From contig JAFSRN010000002.1 in assembly GCA_017446095.1 (NCBI GenBank), forward strand, positions 1 through 64,000: DNA of 64,000 nucleotides. Direction: 5' to 3'. A model generated the notes under the pieces. It searched no databases, was not told the DNA's origin, and was given only the letters and a program-made list of their open reading frames with translations. Positions 245-31,437 of the stretch are shown in pieces. Within the stretch, counting starts at the first letter, position 1, and each line of letters opens with the position of its first letter. Both the position numbers and the translations under genes were made by a program. This stretch comes from Eubacterium sp. (GTDB lineage Bacteria > Bacillota > Clostridia > Oscillospirales > Acutalibacteraceae).

Positions 245-1504
245 TTACTGATTATTTCCGCCGTACGGGTTGCCGCCGGGGATGTAGTTTGTGTTGTATG
301 CGCCGAATGCGTCGCCGTTTGACGGATTGTTTGAGTCGCCCGACTGAACAGGACCGTCGTTATTTGTAAACTGCGGCTGCGGGAAGAAGCTGTTGTTCTG
401 TTCCTGCGGCTGCGGTGCATATGCGTTCTGGTCGAACTGCGGCTGCGGTGCATATGCATTCTGGTCGAACTGCGGCTGCGGTGCGTAAGCGTTCTGGTCG
501 AACTGCGGCTGCTGCGGCGCGTATGCACTCTGGTCGAACTGCGGCTGCTGCGGTGCGTATGCGTTCTGGTCGAACTGCGGCTGCTGTGCGCCGTTATCAA
601 GTTCCGACTCACGTCTTGGAATATAGTTGTTGTTCTGGTCAAAATGCAGGTCGGGCGCGCCGAAACCGTTTGCATCAAACTCTGTGTGCGGAACGTAGTT
701 CTGATTGTCAAACTGCTCTGCAGGCATGCTGCCTACCGCTGCATCAAACTGCTGCTGCGGCGCATATGCATTCTGGTCGTACTGCGGCTGCGGTGCGTAT
801 GCGTTCTGGTCAAACTGCTCTGCAGGCATACTGCCGACTGCTGCGTCAAACTGCTGCGGCTGTGCAGGTGCTTCAAACTGCTCTGCAGGCATGCTCTCAA
901 CCGCTGCTTCAAACTGCTGCGGCGCAGGCTCTTCCGTCTGCATCGGGTCGATAGTGTTTGCGTTTTCCGCGTCAAAATTGTTTTCCTCATTCATCGGAGG
1001 TGTAACAAACTCGTCGTTAACTACCACGTTGCCCTGAAGGTCGTCAAAATCAGCTGCAGGTATGCCCATAAGCGGTGCAGGTTCAACTTCTTCCGACTCG
1101 GTTGTCGGCTCTGCCTCATCCTGCTGCCTGATGTAATAATACTTTTCGGAATCGGTATCCGCAAATGCAATTACGTCACCGTCGTCAAGCTTGCGCTTCT
1201 GCTCCGGGTCAAGGCGTTCGCCGTTAACCTTTGTGCCGTTTGTTGAATTGAGGTCTGTGATGTACCAGTCGCCGTTGAGCGCCTCAAACTTTGCCTGTAC
1301 TCTTGCGCAGTGGGGGTCCTTAAGCACAACCTTGCACACGTTGTAGTCACGGCCTGCCTGCACAGCCTCGCCCTGGCTTGTAACCTCCACAGTTACATTT
1401 TCCGGTGAGTCGCCGAGCATAAGCTTTGTTTCCTTACAATGCGGACAGGTAGCAAACATATCAGCATCGTAAAAGTGACCGTTTTCGCATCTTTGAATGT
1501 TCAT
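245..1504 (-). CDS. Zinc-ribbon/FHA protein with QFDQNAYAPQ repeat tail
   Basis: This 419-residue protein is predicted cytosolic: no signal peptide or membrane segment is seen. Residues 1-24 carry a C-x2-GH-x-YD...CPHC motif, a putative Zn ribbon shared with the FHA proteins at 13417-14160 and 18414-18962. Residues about 30-125 form an FHA phosphothreonine-binding domain (AGRD, LNSTNGT, VNG), although the usual S-x-x-H is replaced by an ARVQ segment. The rest is a low-complexity Gln/Ala/Pro tail with near-identical QFDQNAYAPQ and MPAEQFD units, encoded by tandem DNA repeats. AAAGGAGA precedes the ATG. It is the last gene of the signalling cluster. The likely role is adaptor or scaffold; that is inference. 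Confidence 0.8.
   Translation of the reverse strand: MNIQRCENGHFYDADMFATCPHCKETKLMLGDSPENVTVEVTSQGEAVQAGRDYNVCKVVLKDPHCARVQAKFEALNGDWYITDLNSTNGTKVNGERLDPEQKRKLDDGDVIAFADTDSEKYYYIRQQDEAEPTTESEEVEPAPLMGIPAADFDDLQGNVVVNDEFVTPPMNEENNFDAENANTIDPMQTEEPAPQQFEAAVESMPAEQFEAPAQPQQFDAAVGSMPAEQFDQNAYAPQPQYDQNAYAPQQQFDAAVGSMPAEQFDNQNYVPHTEFDANGFGAPDLHFDQNNNYIPRRESELDNGAQQPQFDQNAYAPQQPQFDQSAYAPQQPQFDQNAYAPQPQFDQNAYAPQPQFDQNAYAPQPQEQNNSFFPQPQFTNNDGPVQSGDSNNPSNGDAFGAYNTNYIPGGNPYGGNNQ
405..590. repeat. Minisatellite of 36-39 bp units inside the FHA repeat gene
   Basis: About five near-identical copies of a unit meaning QFDQNAYAPQP(Q) lie in tandem; further diverged units occur near 770-900. All unit lengths seen are multiples of three, so copy-number changes would lengthen or shorten the tail without frameshift. 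Confidence 0.75.
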
Positions 1505-1528
1505 AATATATCTCCTTTTTAATTATTC

Positions 1529-2038
1529 TTAACTTACAATCTGCATCTGGAATTTTTGCGACAGATTAATTTTATCGCCGCAATTCAGCGGAATAATCGT
1601 GTTTTTGCCGACGCGCCTGTTGTTGATGTACGTGCCGTTGGTGGACGAGTTGTCAAACAGCTGCCATTCGCCGCTTACGCTGTCAAAGTGCAGCACGGCG
1701 TGCTTTCTGCTGACGTACATACGGTTTGCAACGATATCGCAATCCGCAGCCGAGCCTACTGTTATTGTATCCTTTGTGGACAAAATGTCAATCATCTCGT
1801 CAATATCGGGGATATAAAGCGTGAGCCTGTAGCCGCGCGGCGCGGGCTCGGACGTGTAGGTTGAGGGCGTAGGTACAACCTCGCAGTACGGCTGTTCGGT
1901 TAAATCGTCGTAGCGTGGGTTGTAGCGCATATCAATTCTTTTGCCGCACATACAGCAGTATCTGTCGCCTGCGTTAATCCAGCTGTCACATCTGGGGCAA
2001 CGCTGTTTGTAAGAATCGTTTTGTCTTAATGTGTACAT
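1529..2038 (-). CDS. Small zinc-ribbon/FHA protein
   Basis: A 169-residue cytosolic protein. The N-terminus has a CPRCDSW...CCMCG four-cysteine ribbon, and residues about 85-169 are a canonical FHA domain (VGS, VSRKHA, NSSTNGTYIN), so phosphothreonine binding is expected. I chose the ATG at 2038 (MYTLRQND) over a GTG at 2047, because the GGGGAGTGAGG ribosome-binding sequence then has proper spacing and the preceding gene stops at 2044. It lies between the receptor paralogues and the repeat FHA protein, probably co-transcribed with both. Confidence 0.85.
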   Translation of the reverse strand: MYTLRQNDSYKQRCPRCDSWINAGDRYCCMCGKRIDMRYNPRYDDLTEQPYCEVVPTPSTYTSEPAPRGYRLTLYIPDIDEMIDILSTKDTITVGSAADCDIVANRMYVSRKHAVLHFDSVSGEWQLFDNSSTNGTYINNRRVGKNTIIPLNCGDKINLSQKFQMQIVS

Positions 2039-2043
2039 AAACC

Positions 2044-3273
2044 TCACTCCCCTGTGTTTTCGTTAAGTTGCCAAGTTTCGTATATAACATCGCTGTAGTT
2101 ATCAATGATTATGCCCTGGTACTCGTCGCCGCGGTCGTAGATGTAAAAGTTGTAATACTCTTTGTCGTTATCACTTTCAATCGTAAAGTATGCAAGCGTG
2201 CCGTTGATGGTTCTGCCGCTGATATTGTAGTAACCGTAGGACGACGCAATTCCGCCCTCCATCCAGTTGCTGTCGGCGCTGAGAGCGTTAATGTTTATAC
2301 TCTGGGAACCATCGCCGCACTTAAACACGCTGTTCAGATAGTCCGAGCAGAAACGTTTGCAGTCAAGCTCGGTAACATAGTCCATCATTTCATCCGTTTC
2401 GTAATCCGAGGCGAGCAGAAGGAAATCGGTGTTTGAATATTCGTATCCGTCGTTGTTATACTTTGAATCCACAACGTACTGAATCAAATCCGTTTCCTCG
2501 GGCTGCGAGAAGGTGAACACCATATGCTGCCACTCCGTGTCAAACACAGCAGTTACATTCTCGCCGTCAATTGAGTACTTTGATGTGTAGGTGTTTTCCG
2601 AAGGACCTGCAACCTCGTAAAGGCTTGCCTTGCCTGATTTAAACGTGATGTCGTAGTATTCCTCGCCATACGTGCCGTTGATGAAGCCGAGCAAAACGTA
2701 CTTGTTGCCCTCAAGCACATCGGCAAGGGCGTTTGTTTTGCTGCTTGTTGTGGTTTCCTCTGCCGCGGCGGTGGTTGCCTCCTGCGTCTGGGCAGCGGTT
2801 GTGGTTTCAATATCAATGCTGCCGCCTGACGAAGTGCTGCTGCCCGATGAACCGATGATGACAATAATTATGCCTGCGATTACCGCAAGCGCTGCGAGCA
2901 CGCCGACAATAATGCCGATAATCGCACCTGCGCTCATGCCGCCTTTAGCCGCTGCTGAAGCTGCTGCAGGTGCGTATGCACCGACAGGCGGTTTAGGCGG
3001 TTGCTGCGGTTGCATAGGTGCTTGCTGTGGCTGCCTTGGCGGCTGCTGCGGTTGTTGCGGCTGCTGTGGCTGCCTTGGCGGTTGTTGCGGCTGCTGCGGC
3101 GGTCGCTGTGGTTGTTGCGGCGGTCGCTGTGGTTGCTGCGGTTGCCTTGGCGGTTGTTGTGGTTGCTGCGGCGGTCGCTGACCTGCTGCCGCACCGAGTG
3201 CGAATACAAATCCGCAATGCACGCAATTGGGTACGCCGTCGGGCGTTTCTCTGTTACATCTTGGGCAAATCAT
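2044..3273 (-). CDS. Zinc-ribbon membrane protein with PQQ linker, ectodomain paralogue 1
   Basis: 409 residues. Order: CPRCNRETPD...CVHCG zinc ribbon (1-26), a Gln/Pro-rich linker (30-100), one membrane segment (about 118-142), a Thr/Ser-rich stalk, then an ectodomain (about 185-405). The ectodomain shares L-x-GN-x-[FY], the [LM]G pair, F-x-x-GKA-x-L, a beta-rich middle and an E-x-W end with the products at 3286, 4183 and 5337. Predicted topology is ribbon inside, ectodomain outside. The ectodomain family is not one I recognise. A GAGGTAAC site precedes the ATG. A sensor or wall-binding role coupled to the FHA/kinase system is inferred from position only. Confidence 0.75.
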   Translation of the reverse strand: MICPRCNRETPDGVPNCVHCGFVFALGAAAGQRPPQQPQQPPRQPQQPQRPPQQPQRPPQQPQQPPRQPQQPQQPQQPPRQPQQAPMQPQQPPKPPVGAYAPAAASAAAKGGMSAGAIIGIIVGVLAALAVIAGIIIVIIGSSGSSTSSGGSIDIETTTAAQTQEATTAAAEETTTSSKTNALADVLEGNKYVLLGFINGTYGEEYYDITFKSGKASLYEVAGPSENTYTSKYSIDGENVTAVFDTEWQHMVFTFSQPEETDLIQYVVDSKYNNDGYEYSNTDFLLLASDYETDEMMDYVTELDCKRFCSDYLNSVFKCGDGSQSININALSADSNWMEGGIASSYGYYNISGRTINGTLAYFTIESDNDKEYYNFYIYDRGDEYQGIIIDNYSDVIYETWQLNENTGE

Positions 3274-3285
3274 AGTGTTACCTCG

Positions 3286-4167
3286 TTATTCAATCGTAGT
3301 TGTTTCGAAGTGCATGCCGTTGCCGTCAACAGCTATAAGCTGATAGCCGCCGTCCGTCTTTTCTATGCAGAATTTATACCTTCTCGGCTCACCGTCGGAC
3401 GAGCCCTCGTTGCCGTAGATATACAAATCGCAGTACAGCAGACTGCTGTTGATGCCCTTGCAGTTGATGTTGTATTCCACGCTGAAGCCATCAATAGTAG
3501 CAAGCAGCACGTCGTCCGCATATTCCGCGTCCTTGTTAAAGGTAATCTTCACGCCGTTTGGCATATTCAGCGGCTTTTTGAAGTACTGCGCGTCAACCGT
3601 TTTGCCGTCGAGCTCCTGCACGATATCAAGCCTTGACTCATTGTCGTAGTCCGCCTTGATAACGGCGAGGTCGGTGTCCGCGCCCGCGTCCTTGATAGTT
3701 GAGGTGTACGTGATATAGCTACTTTTGCCCGTTGCTTCAAACTTAAAGTCAATGCTCTTGTACAGCGCGGAATCAACGGTAACGTACACGCCGTCGTCCT
3801 TTACCTTATAATCGGACTTTGCGGTGGTTTTTTTGCCCATAACCTCTTCGGTAAGCTCTGCCTTGCCGTCGTTAAAAGCAATCTGGAAATAGTCGCCCTC
3901 GGTGCCGATTGTAAGACCGAGCAGCACAAAGGTGTTGCCGCCGAGCGCCTTTTCCGTTTCCTTGCCGACGTTCACCTTTTTGGCAGTGGTTTCGCCGCTT
4001 GAAGGTTCGGCAGTAGTTTCCTGCGCTGTCTGCGTTTCGCTTGCAGCGGCAGTGGTGGTTTCCTCCGCTTTATCGCCGCCCTTGCCGCCGAGCACAATGG
4101 CAAGCACTGCGCATATTGCGGCTATTGCCAGAACGGCGATTATGATAATCGTTTTTCTGTTTTTCAT
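3286..4167 (-). CDS. Membrane-anchored ectodomain paralogue 2, lacking the zinc ribbon
   Basis: 293 residues. It begins directly with the membrane anchor (residues 6-28, after MKNRK), then an Ala/Thr/Glu stalk and the same ectodomain as its neighbours (LGGNTFVLLG, FNDGKAELT, a late FCIEKTDGGYQ). It therefore lacks the cytosolic ribbon and linker found in paralogues 1, 3 and 4 and should have almost nothing inside the cell. A lipid-modified cysteine is not evident. It probably arose by duplication and N-terminal loss. Function unknown; likely a partner of the other three ectodomains. Confidence 0.75.
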   Translation of the reverse strand: MKNRKTIIIIAVLAIAAICAVLAIVLGGKGGDKAEETTTAAASETQTAQETTAEPSSGETTAKKVNVGKETEKALGGNTFVLLGLTIGTEGDYFQIAFNDGKAELTEEVMGKKTTAKSDYKVKDDGVYVTVDSALYKSIDFKFEATGKSSYITYTSTIKDAGADTDLAVIKADYDNESRLDIVQELDGKTVDAQYFKKPLNMPNGVKITFNKDAEYADDVLLATIDGFSVEYNINCKGINSSLLYCDLYIYGNEGSSDGEPRRYKFCIEKTDGGYQLIAVDGNGMHFETTTIE

Positions 4168-4182
4168 AGTAACCTCACTTAC

Positions 4183-5286
4183 TTACGGGCTTACCCAGCC
4201 TTCAATTTCCGTACCCTCTTGTTCAAAGAAAGATGCCTGATAGCCGCTGTCCGTTTTTTCAATATAGAAGATATAAACATCCTGCAGCACGCCGTTATCA
4301 AGCAGGCACAGCTCGCACTTCATAAGCTTATCGTTAATCGGTATGCAGTAAACCTCGTGTTCCCTTGAGTAGTTGAAGAAGGCTGCCTTCATACTCGAGT
4401 AGCCGTCGCCCTCTTTGTAGAAGGTAAGCTCGCTCTCCCTCTCACTCATATTAAGCACATCCTGGAAATACGTTGCAACGAGCGTGAGGTTGTGCATATC
4501 GTAAATAATATCGTTTTTATCGTAGGTGTCGTATTCCGACTTGGGCAGCAGGTAGCCCGAATAATCCGCGCTGCCGCTGACATCCGGATACGATTCGGAA
4601 AAGGAGTAGCGCAGGTAGCGGCTGTAGCCCGTGTCATCAAACTTAAAATCAAGTTTACTGTAAGCCGTGTTGAACGACACCTTGACAGCGCTCTCCGTAA
4701 CAGAATAATCTGCTGTGTATTTTTTGTTGTCTGAGCCCCAGTCGGTAAGCTCTGCCTCTCCGTCGTCAAAGTAAAGCTCGTAGTACGCCATACCCTCCGC
4801 GTATTCGCCAAGCGCAAGGAACGTGCCGCCGTCAAGCGCTTTTTCAACCGCGTTGGTTTTGGCAGTTTTATCGGTGGTGGATTCCTCGGTAGTGGTTTCT
4901 GTATACGGGTCGGTTGTTACAATGTCAAGCCCGTCCGTAATATCCGGGTCGTTTGAAAACAGCAAAACGCAGACAACACCGATGATAAACAACAGCAGTA
5001 ATCCGCCGACTGCCGCGCCGACTATTATTCCGATTTTAGCGCCTGAACTGAGCCCCTTTTTCTGTGCAGGGTACGGCAGGTTATTGCCGCACACCGTGGG
5101 CTGATACATCGGCTGCTGCCTGTTTGGCTGCACGGGCGGTCTTGGCGGTACAGGTCGGTTTTGCGGCGGTCTGTTAGGCATCTGCCCCATCTTCTGACGC
5201 GGCGCACCCTGATTAAACCTGAAGCCGCAGTTCATACAAAACGTAGAATTATCCGGTACGTTTCTTTTGCATTTTGGACAAATCAT
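4183..5286 (-). CDS. Zinc-ribbon membrane protein, ectodomain paralogue 3
   Basis: 367 residues: CPKCKRNVPDN...CMNCG ribbon (1-26), Pro/Gln/Arg-rich linker, one membrane helix (about 80-110), a Thr-rich stalk, then the shared ectodomain (LDGGTFLALG, FDDGEAELT, YIEKTDSGYQ). Its C-terminal half is closest to paralogue 2: both have IEKT(D)xGYQ followed by a short acidic end. A GAGGTAG site lies upstream of the ATG. Orientation and spacing of 15-50 bases put all four paralogues in one transcription unit. Exact function not recognised. Confidence 0.75.
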   Translation of the reverse strand: MICPKCKRNVPDNSTFCMNCGFRFNQGAPRQKMGQMPNRPPQNRPVPPRPPVQPNRQQPMYQPTVCGNNLPYPAQKKGLSSGAKIGIIVGAAVGGLLLLFIIGVVCVLLFSNDPDITDGLDIVTTDPYTETTTEESTTDKTAKTNAVEKALDGGTFLALGEYAEGMAYYELYFDDGEAELTDWGSDNKKYTADYSVTESAVKVSFNTAYSKLDFKFDDTGYSRYLRYSFSESYPDVSGSADYSGYLLPKSEYDTYDKNDIIYDMHNLTLVATYFQDVLNMSERESELTFYKEGDGYSSMKAAFFNYSREHEVYCIPINDKLMKCELCLLDNGVLQDVYIFYIEKTDSGYQASFFEQEGTEIEGWVSP

Positions 5287-5336
5287 TTTTCTACCTCAAA
5301 ATATCGGTTTGTGTTCGTACAGTGCCGTGGGATAGT

Positions 5337-6542
5337 TTACCATTTTTCAACCGTTACGCCGTCGCTGTCGCAGAACAGCGCCTGAATATCGTCGCCGTTT
5401 CGCTCAACGTACATATTAAACGACGCTTTGCCCATGCCGATTTTAGTAGCCGTGAACACCGCAAGATTGCTGTTGATACCCTTGCCGGAAAACGTTTTTT
5501 CGTCCAGATTGCAGTGGTATTCCGCAAGGATGGGCATTGCGCTGTATTGTTTATCAATCTTGAAGTTGAGCGAGGACACGTCGTTACTCATATACAAGTC
5601 CTCAAGGTACTCTGAACGCACGGACTTGCCGTTAAGGTAGTTAACGATATCCTTTGATTCAAAATGGTAGTTGTCTTCTTTAATAATAATGTCGTGTATC
5701 TCGTAGCCGCCGTCGGATTCGCAGTCGTAGGCAACGTATCTGCTGCCGTCAAGCGCGTAAAAATGCAGGTTAAAGGTGTTGCCCGACGTGTTAAACTTAA
5801 CGGACAGCACGCCGTTTGCAACGGTGCAATCTGCTTTAACTGGCTTTGAACTTACGGAAACATTGAGCGTTGCCGTGCCTTTTGCAAACGTGATTTCCTG
5901 CTCATTTTCAGGCAGATCCTTTGCAAGCCTGCCCATAATGCGGTAGGTGTTGCCTGCAAGCTTTTTTTCAAGCGCGGTGCTGCCTGTTGCCGCAGCGGCG
6001 GTTGTGGTTTGCTTTTTAGTTGTGGTTTCCTGCGGTCTTGTTGTGGTTTCAACCTGCTCGGTTACCGTGGTGGTATCCGTTGCAGGCTCGTCAACGTGCC
6101 TGCCTCTGCCAAGCAGTATGGCGGCAACTGCTGCGATAATCACAACAAGTGCGATTACGCCGATAATAATGCCGATTGCCGCGCCGTTTTTGCGTTTTGG
6201 TGCAGGCGGCGCAGGAAGGTTTGCAGGCGGCTTTTGCGCTTCACCAAACTGTGTGCGTGCTTCTCTTACCTGCGGCGGCTGCTGCACTTCGCCGAACTGC
6301 GTGCGCGCTTCCCTTACCTGCGGGGGCTGCTGCATTTCACCAAACTGTGTGCGTACTTCCCTGACCTGCGGCGGCTGCTGCGCGCCGAACTGTGTGCGAA
6401 CCTCGCCGAACTGCGTGCGCGCCTCACCAAACTGTGTGCGTGCATTAACTGCGGCGTCTGTAGTGCCGCCGAAAACGCTGCCACAGTGGATACAGTAAGG
6501 AGTATTATCCGGTGTGTCTTTACCGCAAATCGGACATTTCAT
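5337..6542 (-). CDS. Zinc-ribbon membrane protein with RTQFGE repeats, ectodomain paralogue 4
   Basis: 401 residues from the ATG at 6542 (an upstream TTG is less likely; AGAGG lies 8 bases before the ATG). Order: CPICGKDTPDN...CIHCG ribbon; six copies of (A/V)RTQFG(E) separated by QQPPQVRE spacers (about 35-100); membrane helix (about 125-147); Thr-rich stalk; shared ectodomain (LAGNTYRIMG, FAKGTATL, final VEKW). The repeats are on the cytosolic side and each has a threonine, so they could be kinase substrates or docking motifs; that is inference. Otherwise as for the three downstream paralogues. Confidence 0.75.
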   Translation of the reverse strand: MKCPICGKDTPDNTPYCIHCGSVFGGTTDAAVNARTQFGEARTQFGEVRTQFGAQQPPQVREVRTQFGEMQQPPQVREARTQFGEVQQPPQVREARTQFGEAQKPPANLPAPPAPKRKNGAAIGIIIGVIALVVIIAAVAAILLGRGRHVDEPATDTTTVTEQVETTTRPQETTTKKQTTTAAAATGSTALEKKLAGNTYRIMGRLAKDLPENEQEITFAKGTATLNVSVSSKPVKADCTVANGVLSVKFNTSGNTFNLHFYALDGSRYVAYDCESDGGYEIHDIIIKEDNYHFESKDIVNYLNGKSVRSEYLEDLYMSNDVSSLNFKIDKQYSAMPILAEYHCNLDEKTFSGKGINSNLAVFTATKIGMGKASFNMYVERNGDDIQALFCDSDGVTVEKW

Positions 6543-6563
6543 CAATTATACCTCTGCAAATTG

Positions 6564-7805: not shown

Positions 7806-7817
7806 AAGTATTCCTTT

Positions 7818-7853
7818 TTCAGTGCAAACCGCCATGCGACGGTCTGCACTGAA
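7818..7853 (-). other. Intercistronic hairpin just upstream of the caspase-like gene
   Basis: A 14-bp stem with a single mismatch (7818-7831 against 7840-7853) and an 8-base loop. On the minus strand it is followed by AAAAAGGAA, the ribosome-binding site of the caspase-like gene, not by a U-tract. It therefore looks more like an mRNA-stability or translation-control element than a terminator. Confidence 0.6.
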
Positions 7854-12394: not shown

Positions 12395-12440
12395 ACTCAC
12401 CTCAATAGTTGGTTATAGAAGTCTTTTAATAAAGACGCAA

Positions 12441-22800: not shown

Positions 22801-25800
22801 TGCCTGCGAGGTCGGTTGACTTTGCGCTGATTTCGTACTGTGCGTCCCTGTCAATCGGGATTGTGTACTCGTAAACAGGCTCTTCGCCATAGGTGGTGAT
22901 AACCGTCCAGTTAGCCTTATCCTTGGCGTTGTCGATGTAAGTCTGGTAGTCAAGGTCAAGCGCGCCGTCGATGTCGCTTGTGTCAATCTTAACGGTTGCG
23001 CCGTCGAAGTTATGCTCTGTTACTCTGATTCGCAGAAGTCTTTGAGTTTCGTAGTAATTGTCTGCATAATGCTCGTCGTTGTCGGGGTCTGTGCTGTCTT
23101 TTTCTTCAGTAATAAGAACTGACGGCGCAGTCCAGTCAACGATGAAGTCTTTTGAATTCTTTTCGTAATAAATTGAGTTTTCTTTAAACTTATCAGCCTT
23201 TTCAACAACGTTTGATAAAACATTGTTGTTGCCAAGTGCGTCGTTCAACGAATCAATTTTTAAAGTGAAATGTCCTTCATCAGGGATTTCATAGGTAAAC
23301 TGATACTTGTCTGTATAGTTTTCGCCTTCTTTAAGGTGAGTCCAGTTTCCTGGATTTGCAAGAAGATTGTTAAATTCGTCATTGCTATTGTAATCATATT
23401 CGTAAACAGAATCGCCGTTTTTGTCAACAGTGTCGCTTTTTACAGTGAGAGTAGCTGTAATACCAACATTTCTGTTACCTACGATAAAGTCATCGTCCTT
23501 AACGGTGATAATAAGTTTGCGCTTATCATTCTTATTGTTAAAATACTTGTCATCTGCACCAACGCCATTGCCGCCGTCTTTAAACTCAACTGCGATTGAC
23601 GGGTTAGTTTTGTCATAAACAAAATGCCTTGAATACTCGTCGTAGCAGCTATCATTTATATCCGCGTCGTTAAGCGCCATATCGGAAAGGCTGTTGACTG
23701 CAAAGGTGTATTCCGCTTCAACAGGAAGTGCCTTTTCAAAAACATACTCACCACCGACAATGTTCCAGTTGTCGGGTTCTGTTAATTCCTCGTTGATATC
23801 ACCTACATCAATTGCTTTACCTGTAGCCGGGTTCTTTGCAGTGAGCGTAGCGTTAATTTTTACAGCACCGTCCTGCTTGTTGATGCGTGATAAAAGATAC
23901 GTTTCATTCACCGCTAAAACAAGGGTCTTTTCCTTTGTATAGTAGGCAATCCCATTGGTAGTATACTGATAACCGTCAGTTGCATTCTTGAGTGAAACTT
24001 TAAGTTCCGGCTTTGTTTTATCAACAACCGTGTATGCGTTGATGTCCTTTGTAGCGGTGGAAACCTCTTCGGACTCCAGCTTTGCAGCGTCGATAGCAAT
24101 AGCGGTTACATAGCCCTCAAATTCCTGTGATACGGTAACGCGTGCCTCGTTGCCTGCAGCGTCAACAGTCTGGGTAGAGGTTGTGTTGTTCTTCGTGTCG
24201 TGAAGTGTAACTTTGAACTGCTTAACGGACGTTGTAGCGTCGCTGCCGGTGATGATGATATCAACATCGTTTTTGAAGAAATCAAAGGTGATTGTGTTGA
24301 TAAAGTTCTCAATGGAATTCTTGGCGGTTGAATCAGCATAGTAGAAGCCTGTAACCTGCGGCTTTGTAGTGTCTACCTTAATGTTGCTGATAGTCTTTTT
24401 CTTAATATTTCCGTCGCTGTCCTTAACGTAGAACGAAATCTGGTTGGTGTTGCCGTCGCTTACGCTAAACGTAAGCTGCTCGGAATCCCAGTAATTGAGC
24501 ACTCTTGTGGGCAGCTTTGAGATTTTGTTTGTGCCCACGGGCTTTACAACAAGCGGATTTGCCGTGTAGTACAAATCGTCGTTGTAGCCGTTTTTGGCAG
24601 TTGTAATTTCGTAAGAGGTGTCGTCAGCGTCGTCCATCGACATATTGATGGTATATGAAACCTCTTTAGCGTCGTAATAATCGTTTGCAGCAAAAGATGC
24701 CGTAACGGTAGCGGTGCCTGAAGTTACCTCGTCAGTAAAGGTAACAGTGCCGTCGTCAGCTATAGACGAAATGAGCGATTCGCCCGAACCGTTAACAAAC
24801 GAATATGTCGGCGCAGGTGCGTCAGTAGGAACGGTGCCGTCTTTAAAGGTGTTCTTATAAGTGCTGTCAGTACCGTACTTGAGCGATACAGCCGAGGTAG
24901 TAAACTGAGGGTTATACGAACCCTTGTTTACAGTAACCTTTGCAGTGCCGTAAACGGCTTCACTTGCGTTATTCTTTCCGGTTACCTTAAGCTTAATCAC
25001 GCCGGGCTTGTGAACCGATAATGTTACTGTTTTTGTATCGCTTGATATGCTCTTAACAGTTGCAACAGAGGTATTGGCAACCGTCCAAGTACCATTATAT
25101 AAATTATCGCTTGGTATTATCGCGCGATACTCCAGCTCCAGACCTGCTGAATAATTAACATCTGGCGTACTACTACTGTAGCTATCGCCAATCTTATACA
25201 TTACATTAACGTCGTTCTTTACGTCAAGCACTTTAACTGTTGTTGTGCCGGAAGCGTTGTTGTATTTTTCCTGGTCGTCAGGAACAAAGGTAAAGCCCGC
25301 AAGGTTGTTACCTACAGGCGGAACGGTAGACGACGGGTCTGAATCAGCCCACTCAAGTCTGCCGGTTACATCCGTTTCGCCAACCTTTGCGGAAACGAGC
25401 GTGAGCTCGGAATCTTCAAGCGACTCGCCCTTGCAAATGTCTGACGCGGTAACGCTAACCGTAGGCGTAGCCTTGGGAACGGTAATTTTTGCATGCAAAG
25501 TTGCTGCATATGTATAACCCAAATCGGTGTTAATCATATAGCAATCAATCTTTGTCGAGCCGGGTGACACGCCGGTTATTACGCCTGTGGTCTCGCCTGC
25601 CGTAGCAATACTGTCATCCTCTGAAAAGAAGTATGCCTGTGCATTTGGATCAGACAGAAAAGAACCGCCTGACTCAAACCCTAAAGTATAGGTTACAGTA
25701 TTGCCTACCTCAACCTCATCATCAAATGAACCAAAGATCGTAAAGTCTCCTGCAGTCTGACCGTAAGCAATACGCTTGATCGTTCCCGCACCCTTACATA

Positions 25801-26038
25801 CAGTACAGGACGCGCTGTTTTCACCCTTACACTTGGGGCAGGTGATGGTTTCGCTTGCTTTGATGTATCCCGTATGGCTGCAGACGGTACATGTCGAAAC
25901 ATCGGTGCCATTCTTACATACAGGACACAATACGTCCTCGTCCGCAAGGGCGGAAAACGCGCCAAGCGGAACCGTTGTCATTACCATCAACAGCGCGAGC
26001 ACTATTGAAAGCAATTTTTTTACACTACTCTTTCTCAT
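19820..26038 (-). CDS. Giant membrane-anchored surface protein with Cys-ribbon head and Ig-like repeats
   Basis: 2072 residues. Signal peptide (about 1-32), then eight cysteines in DnaJ-like CxxC pairs (CPVC, CTVC, CPKC, CTVC; about 38-85), many Ig-like/Big-type beta modules (recurrent FVDK-, VDWTAPS- and DKTAPK-type module starts), a membrane helix (about 2030-2052) and an acidic cytosolic tail with RRKR stop-transfer. No LPXTG motif. Its start overlaps the preceding stop by 4 bases. It presumably spans the wall; its short tail, rich in Asp/Glu with Ser and Thr, could contact the kinase/FHA machinery. A CxxC zinc module outside the cell is unusual. Confidence 0.85.
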   Translation of the reverse strand: MRKSSVKKLLSIVLALLMVMTTVPLGAFSALADEDVLCPVCKNGTDVSTCTVCSHTGYIKASETITCPKCKGENSASCTVCKGAGTIKRIAYGQTAGDFTIFGSFDDEVEVGNTVTYTLGFESGGSFLSDPNAQAYFFSEDDSIATAGETTGVITGVSPGSTKIDCYMINTDLGYTYAATLHAKITVPKATPTVSVTASDICKGESLEDSELTLVSAKVGETDVTGRLEWADSDPSSTVPPVGNNLAGFTFVPDDQEKYNNASGTTTVKVLDVKNDVNVMYKIGDSYSSSTPDVNYSAGLELEYRAIIPSDNLYNGTWTVANTSVATVKSISSDTKTVTLSVHKPGVIKLKVTGKNNASEAVYGTAKVTVNKGSYNPQFTTSAVSLKYGTDSTYKNTFKDGTVPTDAPAPTYSFVNGSGESLISSIADDGTVTFTDEVTSGTATVTASFAANDYYDAKEVSYTINMSMDDADDTSYEITTAKNGYNDDLYYTANPLVVKPVGTNKISKLPTRVLNYWDSEQLTFSVSDGNTNQISFYVKDSDGNIKKKTISNIKVDTTKPQVTGFYYADSTAKNSIENFINTITFDFFKNDVDIIITGSDATTSVKQFKVTLHDTKNNTTSTQTVDAAGNEARVTVSQEFEGYVTAIAIDAAKLESEEVSTATKDINAYTVVDKTKPELKVSLKNATDGYQYTTNGIAYYTKEKTLVLAVNETYLLSRINKQDGAVKINATLTAKNPATGKAIDVGDINEELTEPDNWNIVGGEYVFEKALPVEAEYTFAVNSLSDMALNDADINDSCYDEYSRHFVYDKTNPSIAVEFKDGGNGVGADDKYFNNKNDKRKLIITVKDDDFIVGNRNVGITATLTVKSDTVDKNGDSVYEYDYNSNDEFNNLLANPGNWTHLKEGENYTDKYQFTYEIPDEGHFTLKIDSLNDALGNNNVLSNVVEKADKFKENSIYYEKNSKDFIVDWTAPSVLITEEKDSTDPDNDEHYADNYYETQRLLRIRVTEHNFDGATVKIDTSDIDGALDLDYQTYIDNAKDKANWTVITTYGEEPVYEYTIPIDRDAQYEISAKSTDLAGNYDKDDSTDSIGFTVDKVAPSKVKFKFKKTSLTTFLNIVTFGIFFNDPVGIEMKAADKTSGLWKGHIEIADKNGNVIVDLDSDDNDGFKLFENGTKVDSVKFTLDEEKLATVKSKQFKGSIQYYVKDKSGNTYQNYGYVINGRFVLDETGQLDVILTDDDGSTTEQTVDNNVVYESIDAHVKNTAITIAPEKGVKKSVQRNTATEDEFAKQQTHFVSAFCKTNEAEYNEADKDYSFHKNAPLFSDDTTFNITMTQKHAGIKKYRIIVFNAHNGNKTYINTPKTAELKNGTYPTTVKEQITVKANANDIVILVVLQSGCGNVSYDVYNFGIDKTAPKLKATFKTNGKATQNKGYYNKKTTYTMEIKDRNLPAGDEYIGTVSYKLDGKKVSKKLYGKNFAASKNTSYWSNDYAYTYTLTNLTKEGTYEDFRFDAADRAKNKSDNASKMVFYYDHTSPKITVTETTHTGPYNGKYYQRERVIRVVVQDRFFKEKGFSYNMKAGSYRFIGDSQASKKYPDNNRRFTYEFTFRPGSANYSSIDCVLNALKAVDLAKNSATHEPPANGNDFTVDAAAPTGFKADIVDDTGSTTDVRGSEYKAFATDKIVLRLSCTDGNLLHAKFSDETLTCEAISSRGNESEVLSVKSTAKHVSRNEVSFTFDNLEKEGFYKLAFTVTDDANNTSETQSVRFAICRNGALINSDDFRKIEDKKPVGPTEVKEVVKFHMYSASPNADAIITVSNNKTKKKELVEGVDYTMNTSNKHDKVSRRAYEYEYVFEKSAFCFEKDENGNYTGDPKDGDYLVTVIPTVETANHKIVKGTPDYFTVNMDSTDPTIAAASIDFVPTYGRDTVNEKLQVSLDSEEAVPSNRFFTNSGTLILTIKDNTGIDESSIEVTWNGKELECTPVDKDVYEVKVSSADEANDNVILIKAKDVANNDIEASFNLNLDNHFWIYVAIGGFGALAVLAVAILLIIARRKRANASDVQTEAEADDSADEE

Positions 26039-26481
26039 TGTTTCTTCTCCTCTCGGATTTTATTTATAATTTCATTAAATTTCCTTCCATTTAATACACA
26101 ATGCATTTCAAAAGAAAATATAAATACCGAAATTGCCAAATAACCTATAAAGTCGGTTTCGCTTTTTATCATAAGCACAATATTCGCCACAAGCGACACA
26201 GCGCAAAGCACGTCGAACACGGCGGAAATACTGTTTTTGAAAAAGCTGAAAATGCCGGGGGCGCCTTTAATCTCGCCCTTTAATTTTATATACATTATAA
26301 TCTGCGTGACTATACCTATTGCGAGGAACAGCCAGAACAGTATTGCCGAGCCGTAAGCAAGCACGCGCCTTGTCCCCTCTTCGTCAAAGCCGGCGCTTGA
26401 CATCAGTATCGGCTGCAGCGACGACATAAAGAACGCCGCTATTGAGATTATCTGATAGTTTTTAAGTGATTTCAATTCCAT
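26035..26481 (-). CDS. Four-helix membrane protein, unknown
   Basis: 148 residues with about four hydrophobic segments (10-30, 42-65, 80-105, 112-132) and a basic C-terminus. No family recognised and no catalytic motif visible. AAAGGAATG ribosome-binding site. Overlap with the giant surface protein suggests the two are translated together; a role in its insertion or stability is possible but unsupported. Confidence 0.65.
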   Translation of the reverse strand: MELKSLKNYQIISIAAFFMSSLQPILMSSAGFDEEGTRRVLAYGSAILFWLFLAIGIVTQIIMYIKLKGEIKGAPGIFSFFKNSISAVFDVLCAVSLVANIVLMIKSETDFIGYLAISVFIFSFEMHCVLNGRKFNEIINKIREEKKQ

Positions 26482-26506: not shown

Positions 26507-26872
26507 TCAGTCTATCCGTTCGGGAATATTAGCCACAACAACAAGGCGCTTGGTGATTTTGAAGTTGTTGTAGGTGTTTTCGTCCGCAACAAGCGCAATC
26601 GTTTCGTCTGCGCCGTCCTCTTCATCGTCGTCCTCCTGCACGGGTACGGCAGGTGCTGCGGGCATATTGGGTGAGTTTTTGTTCACCTTCGGTTTTTTAG
26701 CCTTGCCGCTTTCCACAGGCAGGCCCTTGAGTTCCCTGTACGCTTTTCTTATATCAAGCTTTTTGTAAAGAAACATAGTCAGCGCGGCGCATAAAAACAT
26801 GGCAGCCAGGGAAACAATCATAAGTATGTTAAACAAATTCGGCATACTTATTGCTAACAAAATATAACTCAT
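26507..26872 (-). CDS. Single-pass membrane protein with ETIALV phospho-motif
   Basis: 121 residues. One N-terminal membrane helix (about 12-35), basic stretch, Pro/Lys linker, acidic run (80-90) and then ADETIALVADE (Thr91), which matches the threonine motif repeated in the scaffold at 29512-31437 and in the FHA protein at 13417. It directly follows the transmembrane kinase gene (22-base gap). I infer a membrane-tethered kinase substrate that could recruit FHA proteins. Confidence 0.65.
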   Translation of the reverse strand: MSYILLAISMPNLFNILMIVSLAAMFLCAALTMFLYKKLDIRKAYRELKGLPVESGKAKKPKVNKNSPNMPAAPAVPVQEDDDEEDGADETIALVADENTYNNFKITKRLVVVANIPERID

Positions 26873-26894: not shown

Positions 26895-28691
26895 TTACTG
26901 GTCGGCACCGTACTGCTTTTTATCATAGTGCAGGGTGATTGTATTCTTTGTGGATTTTGCCTGTTCGGGAACTAACTCGATTAATCTTTCAAGCAAGCTG
27001 CCCGTTCCTACAAGCTCTTCCTTGGTAACGCCGCTCGTTTTCATATCCCTGTAATTCTTGTCAAGGTAACTTACGGCAGAGCCGTAAACATACATCTTGC
27101 TGGAATCCGACAAGTTGGATTCTACAACAGCGTCAACCACTTTTTTGTAGGTGTTAAGGATATCAAGATACTTTTCTCTGTTAACGCCCTGACCTGCGTC
27201 GAGCTGCTGCGCGTTGGCAAATTCGAGCATAACGTCTACCATATCGGTTTTCCAGGTTGTTGATACATCGAAATTCTGCGCAGAGCCAAGCTGTTCGTGG
27301 AACGAACCGTCTGTGTAGCACTCATCAAGATACTTTTCATTAACATCAACGCCGCTGCCCATATGTTCTTTTGTATTTTTAAGGATTTTAAGCGCGTAAC
27401 CTGATGAAGTCGGCACATCCTCGTTAAACAGAAGATAATATGCATTTGCCTCGCACACGCAAAGCAGAGCCTTAAGCTCATCGGGATTATACTTATCTAA
27501 CTCATCGGAAATTTTTTCGCACTCTTTGCCGAATTCGTCAAATATTCTAACTAAATCGTTGTTATTATCTATTGAGCCGATCAAATCCTTATTGCTCAGA
27601 ATATCAAGCATTGAAAGCGAATAATTTGCCGCAAGCACGCCGCTGTGCATATTCTTTGAGGCATTTGTATAGCGTTCATGGATTTCGTCGCATTTGTCTA
27701 TAACATTTGTTGTGTTAACCTCGTTAGACTTGGTCTGCACGTCAACAGCCGCGGAAACTACGTCGTTCTTTTCAGCCGCGGTTTTTGCAAACGCCATGCC
27801 CACGCTTGTGATTGCAAACACAACAACGAGTGCAAGCGAGATGCAGAAGGTTGTGATTTTTTTGCTGAGCTTTTTGCGGTAAGCAGCAGTAAGCTCGTAA
27901 ACGTGGTTGAGGTCGTACATCAGTTCATCGCAGTTCTGGTACCTTTTGTTAGGATCCTCCTGCGTACACTTTTCGATAATATGCTCAAGACCTTCGGTGT
28001 ATTCGGACTGAATACCCACTACGCTTCTGAGCTTTGCAGGGCGCTTGCCGCGCTTTGGCACCTTGCCGGTGAGCAGGTGGTGCATGGTCATACCGATAGC
28101 ATAGATATCGGAACGCGGGTCAAACGGAACGCCTGTGGTCATCTGCTCGGGCGGCATATAGCCGGGCGTGCCCTCGATAGTTCTGCTGATGCTGTTTTCC
28201 GGCGTGATTTTTTGCGCAACGCCGAAGTCGAGCAGCTTGATATTATTGTGCGCACCTGGCTGCAGTACAAGGTTTGAGGGCTTGATGTCGCGGTGAACAA
28301 CGTTGTGACGGTGCAGATAGCCCATAACGTCGCAGAGCTGCTTCATCCAGTCGATAACGTCCTCTTCGTCCTGCCTGCCCTGAATTTTAAGCTTAACGCC
28401 CAGATCCTCGCCCTCGATATAGTCCATAACGATGTTGATTGTGGACTCGTCCTCAATGAGGTCGGTAATACGCGGAATCGCGTTGTGGTTGAGCGACGAC
28501 ATCAGGTTAATCTCTTCACGCAGTTTGCTGATGTAGACGTTGATATTCGGCTTGGTTGACCTTTTATCCACCTGCTTGATAGCCCAGATTTTAGTTCTCA
28601 TACTGGTATCAAGCGCAAGGTAGACTTTGGACATACCGCCTTTACCTATTTCACTTGTAAGCTCATATCTTCCGTTAATAATCGTAGGCAT
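26895..28691 (-). CDS. Transmembrane Ser/Thr kinase
   Basis: 598 residues: Hanks-type kinase domain (8-270) with GKGGMS, Lys39, HRDIKPSN (133-140), DFG (155-157) and a standard activation loop SRTIEGTPGYMPPEQ; membrane helix (about 279-303); helical ectodomain of about 290 residues without PASTA repeats. It therefore differs from the usual PrkC/PknB wall-sensing kinases. It starts 16 bases after the phosphatase gene. Probable master kinase for the TVAYA-type motifs of this cluster; that assignment is inferred from context. Confidence 0.95.
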   Translation of the reverse strand: MPTIINGRYELTSEIGKGGMSKVYLALDTSMRTKIWAIKQVDKRSTKPNINVYISKLREEINLMSSLNHNAIPRITDLIEDESTINIVMDYIEGEDLGVKLKIQGRQDEEDVIDWMKQLCDVMGYLHRHNVVHRDIKPSNLVLQPGAHNNIKLLDFGVAQKITPENSISRTIEGTPGYMPPEQMTTGVPFDPRSDIYAIGMTMHHLLTGKVPKRGKRPAKLRSVVGIQSEYTEGLEHIIEKCTQEDPNKRYQNCDELMYDLNHVYELTAAYRKKLSKKITTFCISLALVVVFAITSVGMAFAKTAAEKNDVVSAAVDVQTKSNEVNTTNVIDKCDEIHERYTNASKNMHSGVLAANYSLSMLDILSNKDLIGSIDNNNDLVRIFDEFGKECEKISDELDKYNPDELKALLCVCEANAYYLLFNEDVPTSSGYALKILKNTKEHMGSGVDVNEKYLDECYTDGSFHEQLGSAQNFDVSTTWKTDMVDVMLEFANAQQLDAGQGVNREKYLDILNTYKKVVDAVVESNLSDSSKMYVYGSAVSYLDKNYRDMKTSGVTKEELVGTGSLLERLIELVPEQAKSTKNTITLHYDKKQYGADQ

Positions 28692-28706: not shown

Positions 28707-29474
28707 TTACATTATCTTGATAAGAATGGTTGTGATGTTATCCGTTTCGCCGCGCTCTTTGTTGAGTTCGGTAAGGTCGAGCAGCGCAATGCGCATAGTG
28801 GATTCGTCAAACAGGATTTTCGGCTGCATAACGCCGAGCATCTCTTTTTCGCTGACCTTGTGCCTGAAGCCGTCGGAACAGAGGAGGAAGCCCATATCGC
28901 TTTCCGTAACAATTCTGAAAAAGTCGGGCTTAACCGCCGCGCTTGTGCCGATGCACTGCGTGAGCGTGCTGCTGCGCGGATCGTTTTCCGCCTGCTCTCT
29001 TGTAATCTTATTCTCGCTTACCTCTTTTTCCACAACGGTGTGGTCCCTGGTAAGCTGCTTAAACTCCGAACGTATGGAATAGCATCTTGAGTCGCCGACA
29101 TTGCAGATGATAGCCTTGCCGTCAATCATAAGCATTGCAACAACAGTCGTGCCGAGCTGGATGCCGTGCTCAACGCCGTACTTGAAGATTTTATCGTTCT
29201 TCTCTTTTATAAGGGTATTCCAGCTCTGCCCTACCCCCACAAGGTCAAAATTATTCTGAATAAGCACGGGAAGGCGGTTATCAAACCATTCGGAAAAGCC
29301 TTCAATAACAGTTTTGCTGGCAAGCTCGCCCTTTGACAGTCCGCCAAGACCGTCGCACAAAACCGCCATAAGCACCTCGCCGATTTCCGTTTCCGCAATT
29401 TTGAGGCAGAAGGCGTCCTGATTAACTTTTTTTCTTATTCCCACATCAGTGTTGGCTGCTGTTAAATAATGCAT
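28707..29474 (-). CDS. PP2C-family Ser/Thr phosphatase, partner of the membrane kinase
   Basis: 255 residues, a minimal PP2C (PPM) domain with VNQDAF, CDGLGGLSKGE, VGDSRCY, LTRDHTV, CSDGFR and ETDNITTI, all metal-binding motifs intact. AAGGAG upstream. The pairing phosphatase-then-membrane kinase is the standard Firmicutes PrpC/PrkC order and here repeats the kinase/phosphatase pair 13 kb downstream. Confidence 0.95.
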   Translation of the reverse strand: MHYLTAANTDVGIRKKVNQDAFCLKIAETEIGEVLMAVLCDGLGGLSKGELASKTVIEGFSEWFDNRLPVLIQNNFDLVGVGQSWNTLIKEKNDKIFKYGVEHGIQLGTTVVAMLMIDGKAIICNVGDSRCYSIRSEFKQLTRDHTVVEKEVSENKITREQAENDPRSSTLTQCIGTSAAVKPDFFRIVTESDMGFLLCSDGFRHKVSEKEMLGVMQPKILFDESTMRIALLDLTELNKERGETDNITTILIKIM

Positions 29475-29511
29475 TTACTACTCCTTATCGCAAGCCGCGG
29501 TGCGTGCCTGC

Positions 29512-31437
29512 TTATTCAATATCGAATAAAAATTCTTCGTTGGAAATATAGACTCTTGAACCCCTGAACATTCTTGCAGGCGCGTTTGGCGTAAGCTGAA
29601 CGCCGTCTACAAACGTGTGGTTAGAGGAATTGAGGTCTGTGATATAACAGTCGTTTTTGCTGCGGATTGTAACGCTCGCGTGGCGCCTGCTTACAGTCGG
29701 GTTGCCGGTTACGCAGAAGTCGCACTTTGCAGCGTCCTTGCCGATGATGAAGTTCGGCTTGGTGATATATACCGCCTCGTTGGTTTTGATTCTGATAAGC
29801 TTTGCAACAAACCTCTCGTTCTTCGAGAAGGTGGACGGTGTTTCCGTGTACATATTGTCGGGCGTGAGCGCAACGGTTTCCGGGTACTCGTCGTCCGCTT
29901 CGTCGGTGAAGGATACGGTTTCGGGGTATTCTTCCTCCGCTTCCTCTGTGAACGAAACAGTCTCGGGATACTCCTCCTCAGTCGGCATCGGCTGCGGCTG
30001 ATACATCGGCTGCGGCTGGAACTGCGGCTCGGGCTGCACGTACTGCGGCTGCGGCTGAACCGGCGGTTCAGGCTCTGCATAGGCAATAGTTTCCGGAAAT
30101 TCCATCGGTTCGGGTTCCGGGTCTGCATAAGCCACGGTTTCCGGCAGAGGCTCGGGCTCTGCATACGCTATGGTTTCGGGGAATTCCATCGGCTCGGGTT
30201 CGTCCGCATAAGCGATTGTCTTTTGAAATTCTTCCGGCTCCGCGTACGCCACGGTTTTTGCAAACTCCTCGGGTTCTTCGTACGCCACGGTTTTTGCAAA
30301 TTCTTCCGGCTCTGCGTATGCTACGGTTTTATCAAACTCTTCGCGCTGCGTCTGCACAGGCGGCTCGGCAGGTGCTGCCGGCTCTGCAACAGGTTCCGCT
30401 GCAGGCGGCATAATCGGCTCTGCAACCTGTTCTGCCTGCGGCTCTTCAGGCGCGTAGGCAATAGTTGCCGGGAACTCGTCCTCGTCCTGCTCGTCGGTAT
30501 ACGCAACGGTTTTTTCAAATTCTTCCTGCTCTGCGTACGCTACAGTTTTTTCAAATTCTTCCTGCTCTGCGTACGCTACAGTCTTTTCAAATTCCTCTGG
30601 TTCTGCGTATGCTACAGTTTTTTCAAATTCCTCGGGTTCTGCGTACGCAACAGTTTTCTCAAACTCTTCAGGCTGTGCCTGCGGCACTTCTGGTGCGTAT
30701 GCTAAAGTTTCGGGAAATTCCTCCTGCTCAGGTGCATATGCCAAAGTTTCGGGAAATTCCTCCTGCTCGGGTGCGTATGCCAATGTTTCAGGGAATTCCT
30801 CCTGCACAGGTGCGTATGCCAATGTTTCAGGAAATTCCTCCTGCACCGGCTGTGCAGGCTGCGCGTACTGCGGCTGCTGCGCCGGCTGCGCATAAACCTG
30901 TACAGGCTGTGCATTTTCTAAATTCGTAAGGTATTCGTTGATGCTTTTACTTTCAGGCATCTGTGCAAGGAATGCGAGAAGCCTTTGCGTTTTGTCAACA
31001 TCATCCATCATCTTTGAGTTGGTTACGATGTAGCTGTAAAAGGACGCGATGCTGACCGTTTTCTGATTTGCAAACGGCACATACAGAATCTCAACGCCGT
31101 GCTTAACTCTGTCCACCATAATGTAGTCCGTATTGAGCAGCAGGTGCGCAGGAGTAAGACCGCACATCTCAATTTTCATAACAGCGTTGTTGATTGATTT
31201 TAAGTAAGCCACAAGCTCGGCAAACTTGATGCCGTCCGCAATATCGCTTTGCAGCGACGTGCGGTTAAGCGTTACATACAAAGCGGCTTTTGACTTGCGC
31301 TGATACGGCAGCACAACCGACGGAATATTGTTAGTCTGCAAAAACTGAAGCTCGCCGTCAACAAGGCTTTCACCCTTTTCGAGCTTGACAGTAATCCTCA
31401 TTCCGTTGTTTGCAGCGTTCAATTTAAATTTAGCCAC
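29512..31437 (-). CDS. Repeat scaffold with about 20 ExTVAYA motifs and C-terminal FHA domain
   Basis: 641 residues, GTG start preceded by GGGAGG. Residues 1-150 resemble the DUF6382-type domain found before FHA domains. A Gln/Pro region follows, then about 20 copies of EEF(P/E/D)(E/K)T(V/L/I)AYA and the related EYPETVSF (about 190-535), each with one Thr after acidic residues and followed by a hydrophobic residue. Residues 547-641 are an FHA domain (IGKDAAKC, VSRRHAS, NSSNHTFVDG). First gene after a strong promoter. The threonines look like multivalent kinase sites that FHA proteins of the cluster could bind; that is inference. Confidence 0.85.
   Translation of the reverse strand: MAKFKLNAANNGMRITVKLEKGESLVDGELQFLQTNNIPSVVLPYQRKSKAALYVTLNRTSLQSDIADGIKFAELVAYLKSINNAVMKIEMCGLTPAHLLLNTDYIMVDRVKHGVEILYVPFANQKTVSIASFYSYIVTNSKMMDDVDKTQRLLAFLAQMPESKSINEYLTNLENAQPVQVYAQPAQQPQYAQPAQPVQEEFPETLAYAPVQEEFPETLAYAPEQEEFPETLAYAPEQEEFPETLAYAPEVPQAQPEEFEKTVAYAEPEEFEKTVAYAEPEEFEKTVAYAEQEEFEKTVAYAEQEEFEKTVAYTDEQDEDEFPATIAYAPEEPQAEQVAEPIMPPAAEPVAEPAAPAEPPVQTQREEFDKTVAYAEPEEFAKTVAYEEPEEFAKTVAYAEPEEFQKTIAYADEPEPMEFPETIAYAEPEPLPETVAYADPEPEPMEFPETIAYAEPEPPVQPQPQYVQPEPQFQPQPMYQPQPMPTEEEYPETVSFTEEAEEEYPETVSFTDEADDEYPETVALTPDNMYTETPSTFSKNERFVAKLIRIKTNEAVYITKPNFIIGKDAAKCDFCVTGNPTVSRRHASVTIRSKNDCYITDLNSSNHTFVDGVQLTPNAPARMFRGSRVYISNEEFLFDIE
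30067..30860. repeat. Tandem coding repeats of the scaffold gene
   Basis: Units of roughly 36-42 bases encode the TVAYA motifs; neighbouring copies are nearly identical while distant ones differ, as expected from repeated unit duplication. Unit lengths are multiples of three. Confidence 0.75.

Follow-up and report, generated by a model that had tools for sequence, protein, structure and literature searches.

The window analysed here, 64,000 nucleotides (nt) in length, occupies the start of contig C18 (111,673 bp) in the Eubacterium sp. assembly GCA_017446095.1 (genome G000; 2.09 Mb, 22 contigs, 96.99% complete). Its subject is a cluster of 23 genes at 245-31437 (Table 1), for which the gene content and order, the linkage of its two halves in two species, the lack of detectable translocase genes and the repeated threonine motifs, in the linker of one protein and in the tails of relatives of another, are direct observations. 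From the sequence alone, the cluster had been predicted to form one undescribed threonine-phosphorylation system. Its character as a threonine-phosphorylation cluster is well supported, but a single undescribed 31-kb unit is rejected, since its two halves, termed here modules A (g18-g23) and B (g09-g16), occur apart in other genomes; moreover, module A resembles the type VIIe secretion system (T7SSe, also T7SSj) and the exporter of module B resembles the Rv1747/PknF pair.

Composition of the cluster

All 23 genes are consecutive on the minus strand, as originally predicted, with intergenic gaps of -11 to 73 nt. Pfam agrees with the predicted tally of two kinases, two PP2C phosphatases and nine FHA proteins with ten domains, the matches above cut-off being FHA (g01, g02, g10 twice, g11, g12, g14, g15, g16 and g23), Pkinase (g14 and g21), PP2C (g13 and g22), ABC_tran (g10) and ABC2_membrane (g09), the last two bearing out the exporter with FHA domains. 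The FHA match of g14 barely passes (21.7 vs 20.7 bits). Catalytic motifs of the kinases and phosphatases appear intact when read by eye, and g21 retains HRD and DFG. Ten of the 12 FHA domains of the whole genome and two of its four kinase matches fall in the cluster, and the concentration of FHA domains there therefore exceeds chance. The remaining two FHA domains share one open reading frame (ORF) on contig C10, and most of 60 same-genus genomes likewise have two. These 60 genomes served for part of the comparisons within the genus, and the full set of 80 (G000 included) for others.

The further parts of the original prediction fared unevenly. The predicted receptor g15 retains its FHA domain, whereas its VWA match (21.8 bits) stays below the Pfam cut-off of 27. 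A caspase-like nature of g07 is not borne out: besides the weak CHAT match there is a His-Gly/Cys pattern read by eye, and comparison with solved structures returned no caspase, a TPR protein being the best match (E 0.043). The four paralogous membrane proteins g03-g06 are confirmed, their outside domains sharing 28-37% identity with the one in g04 and having no match in the relatives' loci compared, and the large surface protein g18 proved to be TseI-like. Kinase/phosphatase pairs do occur twice, one per module, as the join of two modules explains. The response regulator gene g17 was missing from the predicted list of parts. In addition, g01 carries a long Q/N/P-rich tail.

Table 1. Features of the cluster along the minus strand, with E-values of matches (TM, transmembrane helix)
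Feature	Position	Strand	Basis or remark
Promoter-like site, TTTACA-17-TATAAT, extended TG	31512..31540	-	upstream of g23; consensus match only
g23, TseJ-like: DUF6382-like N-terminus, repeats, C-terminal FHA	29512..31437	-	FHA 2.9e-14; DUF6382 1.8e-4, below cut-off
g22, PP2C phosphatase, TseF-like	28707..29474	-	PP2C_2 7.3e-9
g21, Ser/Thr kinase, TseD-like: one TM and outside part (read from sequence)	26895..28691	-	Pkinase 3.6e-51
g20, TseK/TseH-like: single TM, acidic cytoplasmic tail, one DETIALV motif	26507..26872	-	position, C-terminal block
g19, about four TM (read from sequence), extra component of some EssC loci	26035..26481	-	relatives' matches
g18, TseI-like envelope protein, 2072 amino acids, signal peptide, C-terminal TM	19820..26038	-	homology; ends read from sequence
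Perfect 13-bp inverted repeat between g18 and g17, A/B junction	19762..19793		T-run on plus side only
g17, LytTR response regulator	19051..19746	-	LytTR 2.4e-20, Response_reg 9.3e-8
g16, zinc-ribbon FHA adaptor	18414..18980	-	FHA 4.1e-8; kept in G468, G007
g15, signal peptide, outside VWA, TM, inside FHA	16718..18424	-	FHA 2.8e-19; VWA below cut-off
g14, zinc-ribbon kinase with FHA tail	15311..16690	-	Pkinase 1.1e-32, FHA 2.7e-4
g13, module B PP2C phosphatase	14183..15307	-	PP2C 2.4e-9
g12, zinc ribbon, T-[VI]-containing segment, FHA; GarA-like layout	13417..14160	-	FHA 1.4e-8
g11, DUF4234 membrane domain and FHA	12473..13417	-	DUF4234 1.6e-17, FHA 6e-13
g10, two FHA domains and ABC ATPase	10787..12400	-	ABC_tran 5.3e-32, FHA 1.1e-31 in two stretches
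g09, ABC-2 permease, large outside insert	8484..10790	-	ABC2_membrane 2.4e-13; 49% identity to G468
g08, zinc ribbon and membrane domain	7862..8479	-	38% identity to G468
g07, zinc ribbon and TM; outside domain possibly of clan CD (caspase-like), unproven	6564..7835	-	CHAT E 0.017, below cut-off
g03-g06, four paralogues with TM, sharing one outside domain family	2044..6545	-	outside domains compared with g04
g01, g02, FHA adaptors, incomplete binding sites	245..2047	-	Pfam, residue alignment
GC-rich hairpin at contig end	161-182		no T-run on minus strand

Genes g18-g23 and type VIIe secretion loci

T7SSe was published in 2024, and the passages of PMC11217815 on its components present TseJ as a DUF6382 and FHA protein, TseF as a PPM phosphatase, TseD as a membrane kinase, TseK and TseH as proteins with a single TM and an unstructured cytoplasmic tail, and TseI as a giant protein with a signal peptide, Ig-like domains and a C-terminal TM (hereafter J, F, D, K, H and I). 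Because components and order match both this list and the loci of same-genus genomes that carry an EssC-type ATPase, g18-g23 are assigned to the control and envelope genes of the T7SSe type. J, F, D, K/H and I types are all present in the order seen in these EssC genomes, the F-like phosphatase g22 adjoins the D-like kinase g21, and g21 holds the equivalent position in EssC loci. The N-terminal part of g23 matches J of G033, G027, G028, G055 and G014 (E 1e-8 to 4e-5), its DUF6382 match reaching 21.7 bits (Pfam cut-off 26.7). Position and a C-terminal block are common to g20 and the K proteins of EssC loci; g20 matches a G468 protein at 5.1e-6, which in turn matches a G046 protein at 5e-7, and fits one of H and K, each having a single TM and a short cytoplasmic tail. 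Homology of g18 extends to proteins at the same position in G468 (2.6e-133) and in the EssC locus of G027 (2e-19), and the G468 protein also matches its G046 counterpart (1.3e-57); a Big_13 match in g18 (E 0.019) is below the Pfam cut-off. The protein with about four TM, g19, is not among the components described in those passages of PMC11217815, and has matches in G046, G008, G029, G054, G050, G001 and G468.

The cluster differs from T7SSe in that G000 shows neither a TsxC/TseC ATPase nor TseA/TseA2 (WXG100). The search for EssC covered 60 genomes and then the 20 remaining, within a set of 25 that included G000 and the positive control G046, and yielded for G000 nothing beyond an FtsK-like match and a single match through the FHA domain; WXG100 proteins were not detected in G000 at E ≤ 1. 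Moreover, g18 is followed by the LytTR gene and the exporter module, whereas in eight EssC loci of the genus (G014, G027, G028, G032, G033, G034, G055 and G450) EssC lies there, at most two genes after I. In G046, EssC lies before J. The J-F-D-K-I order, with the four-TM gene after K in some, is intact in the EssC genomes G046, G008, G055 and G450, carries one to three extra genes between J and F in G028, G027, G033, G032 and G034, and is partial in further genomes.

Across the 80 genomes, an EssC-type ATPase (a long match to the G046 protein) was found in 15, plus a broken piece in G001, and the other matches were FtsK-like, mostly of about 850 amino acids. WXG100 proteins at 1e-4 were likewise found in 15 (13 EssC genomes, G001 and G004), and none at this threshold in G468, G457, G461, G007, G042 or G029. 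The F class of phosphatase to which g22 belongs, set at E ≤ 1.9e-59 with the next class beginning at 5.1e-33, is present in 17 genomes. Thirteen of these have EssC, and G000, G468, G457 and G029 do not; the EssC genomes G014 and G056 lack the F class. EssC and the phosphatase share a contig in nine of the 17 (G027, G028, G032, G033, G034, G046, G055, G450 and G458) and lie on different contigs in G008, G050, G054 and G059. A hidden EssC in an assembly gap is unlikely, because it would have to be missing from G000, G468, G457 and G029 alike, each about 97% complete.

Three FHA proteins beside J in T7SSe loci (L028:16257-17750, minus strand; L035:4334-5812, plus; L120:14379-15749, minus) have an outside trypsin-like part (GNSGGP) and a TM. 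Near another T7SSe locus (L030:4394-8230, plus strand) a protein of 1278 amino acids fuses microbial PARG, GDSL lipase, FHA, SseB and Ser/Thr kinase domains; relatives of this fusion occur in G033, G059 and, in shorter form, G468.

Genes g09-g16, the exporter and the junction

Module B comprises a VWA-TM-FHA receptor, a zinc-ribbon kinase, a phosphatase, FHA adaptors and an exporter made of an FHA-FHA-ABC protein and an ABC-2 permease. The g16-to-g09 order is kept in G468 and G007, and in G042 as pieces on two contigs. G007 and G042, which belong to the same genus, hold module B without module A and have neither EssC nor an F-class gene. Within the genus, g15-type VWA-FHA proteins occur in five of the 80 genomes (G000, G007, G042, G461 and G468), in none of which EssC was found, and the g10-type FHA-ABC protein in four of the 80, where scoring was limited to 18 candidates per genome. 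A scan of named genomes gave at least 80 VWA-FHA loci, and the neighbourhoods of ten of them were examined with 10-kb flanks. A core of VWA-FHA protein, kinase, PP2C and g12-like and g11-like FHA proteins is present in Lachnoclostridium stercoripullorum (L126), Clostridium sp. (L128) and Ruminococcus RUG13152 (L129), and partially in Eubacterium RGIG2622 (L127). The 10-kb flanks of these four loci contained no FHA-ABC exporter, and no match to I, EssC or WXG100 beyond shared FHA parts.

FHA-ABC-type matches at E ≤ 1e-60 were found in at least ten further genomes of 394 in the order, a lower bound because three candidates per genome were scored. In ten such loci, ATPase and permease form one ORF in seven and lie side by side in G432; a kinase and a PP2C are nearby in four (five with G203, whose kinase match is weak at 3e-8), a kinase alone in three, and neither in two. 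The mycobacterial Rv1747-type FHA-ABC exporter also has ATPase and permease in one polypeptide. Like module B, it has FHA domains attached to an ABC ATPase and an associated exporter part, is encoded in one operon with a Ser/Thr kinase and has a complete FHA site (passages of PMC5549992; see also PMC3908365), whereas g10 and g09 are separate genes and module B adds a PP2C, a VWA receptor and the FHA proteins g11, g12, g14, g15 and g16. The g12-type adaptors recall the GarA/OdhI switch in having a threonine segment immediately before the FHA domain (passages on GarA in PMC12321487), but g12 has an N-terminal zinc ribbon and no sign of a tie to the tricarboxylic acid cycle, and its phosphorylation is predicted. 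The threonine phosphorylation pathway of the type VI secretion system (T6SS), as cited in a passage of PMC11217815, likewise pairs a kinase with an FHA protein to control a secretion machine; however, the TagH (VI_FHA) model scores 30.9 bits on g15 against a cut-off of 120 and gave no listed match for g01, g10 or g23, these being the four of the nine FHA proteins scanned.

In G000, g17 and module B directly follow g18. The only other species in which the join is seen is G468, where contig C7 starts inside the C-terminus of a kinase and continues with K, the four-TM gene, a TseI-like protein of 3090 amino acids and g16-g08 in order, and the end of contig C15 carries J (148 amino acids, FHA without the DUF6382 part), F and the N-terminus of a kinase. 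The predicted conservation of linkage thus holds, among the 80 genomes, for each module separately, and for the joined arrangement in this one other species. Since 14 proteins paired by blastp between G468 and the window are only 32-58% identical, the join does not appear to be recent, although two separate join events are not excluded. G457 has a J-F-D set resembling that of G468 at a contig end, and g15 and g10 were not found in this genome. Comparison with 18 ORFs of the G468 locus gave no clear counterpart of g01-g07, the matches running through FHA or zinc-ribbon parts only. Homologues of g17 lie just before the VWA-FHA gene in G461 (1e-99) and L129 (4e-32), in the latter directly before the VWA-FHA core, and weaker LytTR homologues occur in the EssC genomes G028, G032, G033, G050, G458 and G014; g17 therefore marks neither module.

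A candidate phosphothreonine pathway and its alternatives

The motif T-x-[VILAP]-[LYFM] is abundant in J linkers and K tails. In the linkers of 14 J proteins it was observed 64 times against 9.4 expected from residue shuffles (five of 18 candidate J rows having been excluded as second FHA proteins), and in the tails of 14 K proteins 63 times against 6.5, whereas 16 window ORFs outside the cluster had 35 copies against 40.1 expected. Among J linkers, G000 has 18 copies, G029 12, G028 and G055 six each, G450 five and G014 three, and the excess lies beyond all 2000 shuffles in G000, G028, G055, G029 and G450. For g23 itself, whose 18 repeats read [EKA]-T-[VIL]-A-[YL], 2.0 copies were expected. 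The short J of G468 has three copies ahead of its FHA domain, read from sequence and outside the count. K tails hold one to nine copies each, and the J copies mostly adjoin acidic residues. In module B, a T-[VI] segment precedes the FHA domain in most of 13 aligned g12/g16 sequences. There are two parallels: the ETTS phosphorylated in GarA lies immediately ahead of the FHA domain (passages of PMC12321487), and FHA I of Rv1747 binds a pTRVV peptide (passages of PMC5549992). In the cytoplasmic tail of g06 (5337-6545; residues ~35-105) there are tandem RTQFGE repeats, a possible threonine repeat of a different type.

With moderate confidence, the cluster is read as two joined threonine-phosphorylation modules, A being the control and envelope part of a T7SSe without its translocase and B a VWA-kinase-FHA-exporter set. 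Outside signals would reach the VWA part of g15, the outside part of g21 and perhaps g03-g07. The targets of the kinases g21 and g14 would then be threonines with a hydrophobic residue at +3 in the repeats of g23, in the tail of g20 and in g12, and g22 and g13 would reverse the phosphorylation. The marks would be bound by intact FHA domains. Five residues (Gly, Arg, Ser, His and Asn) bind phosphothreonine according to the passage on the FHA site in PMC5549992, and an alignment shows all five in both domains of g10 and the one of g15. Binding would assemble, tether or gate the g10/g09 exporter beside the envelope protein g18. A more specific suggestion, put forward tentatively and with low confidence, is a hybrid machine in which the T7SSe scaffold of kinase, phosphatase, hub J, anchor K and I exchanged its FtsK/WXG100 translocase for an FHA-gated ABC-2 exporter encoded after tseI, the phosphothreonine repeats serving as the docking interface.

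Several points weigh against reading the cluster as two joined modules of this kind. Phosphorylation, binding and export are all predicted from gene content, gene order and motif counts. Seven of the ten FHA domains have an incomplete site, with Lys in place of Arg in g11 and g23 and one or more of the five residues missing in g01, g02, g12, g14 and g16, and some may therefore bind without phosphate or fail to bind. The motif was picked after inspection of J and K, and copies in tandem cannot count as independent; among J proteins of EssC genomes, seven have only two copies, a number reached by 42-315 of 2000 shuffles, the J of G458b has none, and the single copies in g20 and in K of G468 are reached by 204 and 192 of 2000. 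The lack of WXG100 is a soft sign, as two of the 15 EssC genomes (G028 and G059) also have none at 1e-4. The join is seen in two lineages, in one of which (G468) two contigs each hold part of the locus, and the modules could be mere neighbours. Moreover, contig C18 starts at window base 1, 244 bases past g01, so that further genes could be missing there. Finally, the trees are compatible both with loss of a translocase and with module A as an older stand-alone module: in the unrooted kinase tree the EssC state needs two changes, and the PP2C tree, rooted on two PrpC rows (of four tried), gives the EssC-present clade a support of 80/82 and places the EssC-less genomes at the base.

The modules might instead be two working but separate systems side by side, A signalling to the cell wall and B running an exporter, which is possible but improbable. 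Module A stands without B in G029 and 13 EssC genomes as B does without A in two, each module has its own kinase/phosphatase pair, and a hairpin lies at the junction; yet the genes run on one strand, the gaps around g17 are only 70 and 73 nt, and the join is repeated in G468. An equally doubtful alternative is a decaying remnant, in which the translocase of a T7SSe locus has gone and the genes left behind are decaying beside an unrelated module B. EssC and WXG100 were not found in G000, the J proteins of the EssC-less G468 and G457 have shrunk to 142-148 amino acids and lack the DUF6382 part, the window sits on long branches of the kinase tree, and the T7SS locus of G001 is visibly broken. However, module A of the window has all six reading frames open and the motifs of its kinase and phosphatase intact, G000 and G468 share module A genes at 32-58% identity (g20 apart, which is weakly alike), and dead genes would hardly stay open for so long a divergence; in addition, the J repeat is expanded rather than eroded in the EssC-less G000 and G029. 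Very improbable is a phage-defence or conflict system with kinase signalling (of the PD-T4-6, MADS or vWA-ternary type): PADLOC mad6 and PD-T4-6 kinase models match both kinases, mad3 matches g10 (2e-30), PDC-M21C matches g22 (2.2e-9), and active zinc-ribbon kinase, PP2C and vWA triads are reported for actinobacterial GAP1-N2 systems in a passage of PMC7159879, but the kinase and ATPase matches are to common domains, no PADLOC model matched g07, g09, g13, g15 or g16 at 0.001 (10 of the 23 proteins scanned), and Pfam matches of the 23 genes include no MoxR or other vWA-system partner.

What would be new in the two joined modules is the union of a T7SSe-type control and envelope set, lacking a detected translocase, with an FHA-ABC exporter module, each part resembling known kinds. 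In the open-licence literature, DUF6382 appears in PMC11217815 only, this paper alone concerns type VII secretion among the papers listed for T7SSe, TseJ, TseD or TsxC, DUF4234 was not found with FHA, and titles and abstract starts on FHA with T7SS, or with vWA, PP2C or ABC, name no joined system. The passages of PMC11217815 on regulation propose phospho-control and name no substrate or acceptor site; the T-x-[VILAP]-[LYFM] repeats point to exact candidate residues. Genomes with the control and envelope half but without the translocase let the two halves be studied apart, and, as the join with an exporter suggests, docking between phosphothreonine and FHA may enable a single control scaffold to work with different export motors.

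The scan that gave the promoter-like site upstream of g23 returned 29 such sites in the stretch covered, against 22.5 expected. No terminator is claimed at the g18/g17 repeat or at the contig-end hairpin, the minus strand being without a T-run at both. Near the cluster, on the plus strand at 37463-40111, Pfam places a Wzz-like protein, a ParA/AAA_31-type ATPase and a CpsB/CapC phosphatase in a row, which probably serve surface polysaccharide as a phosphorylation set of the tyrosine type.

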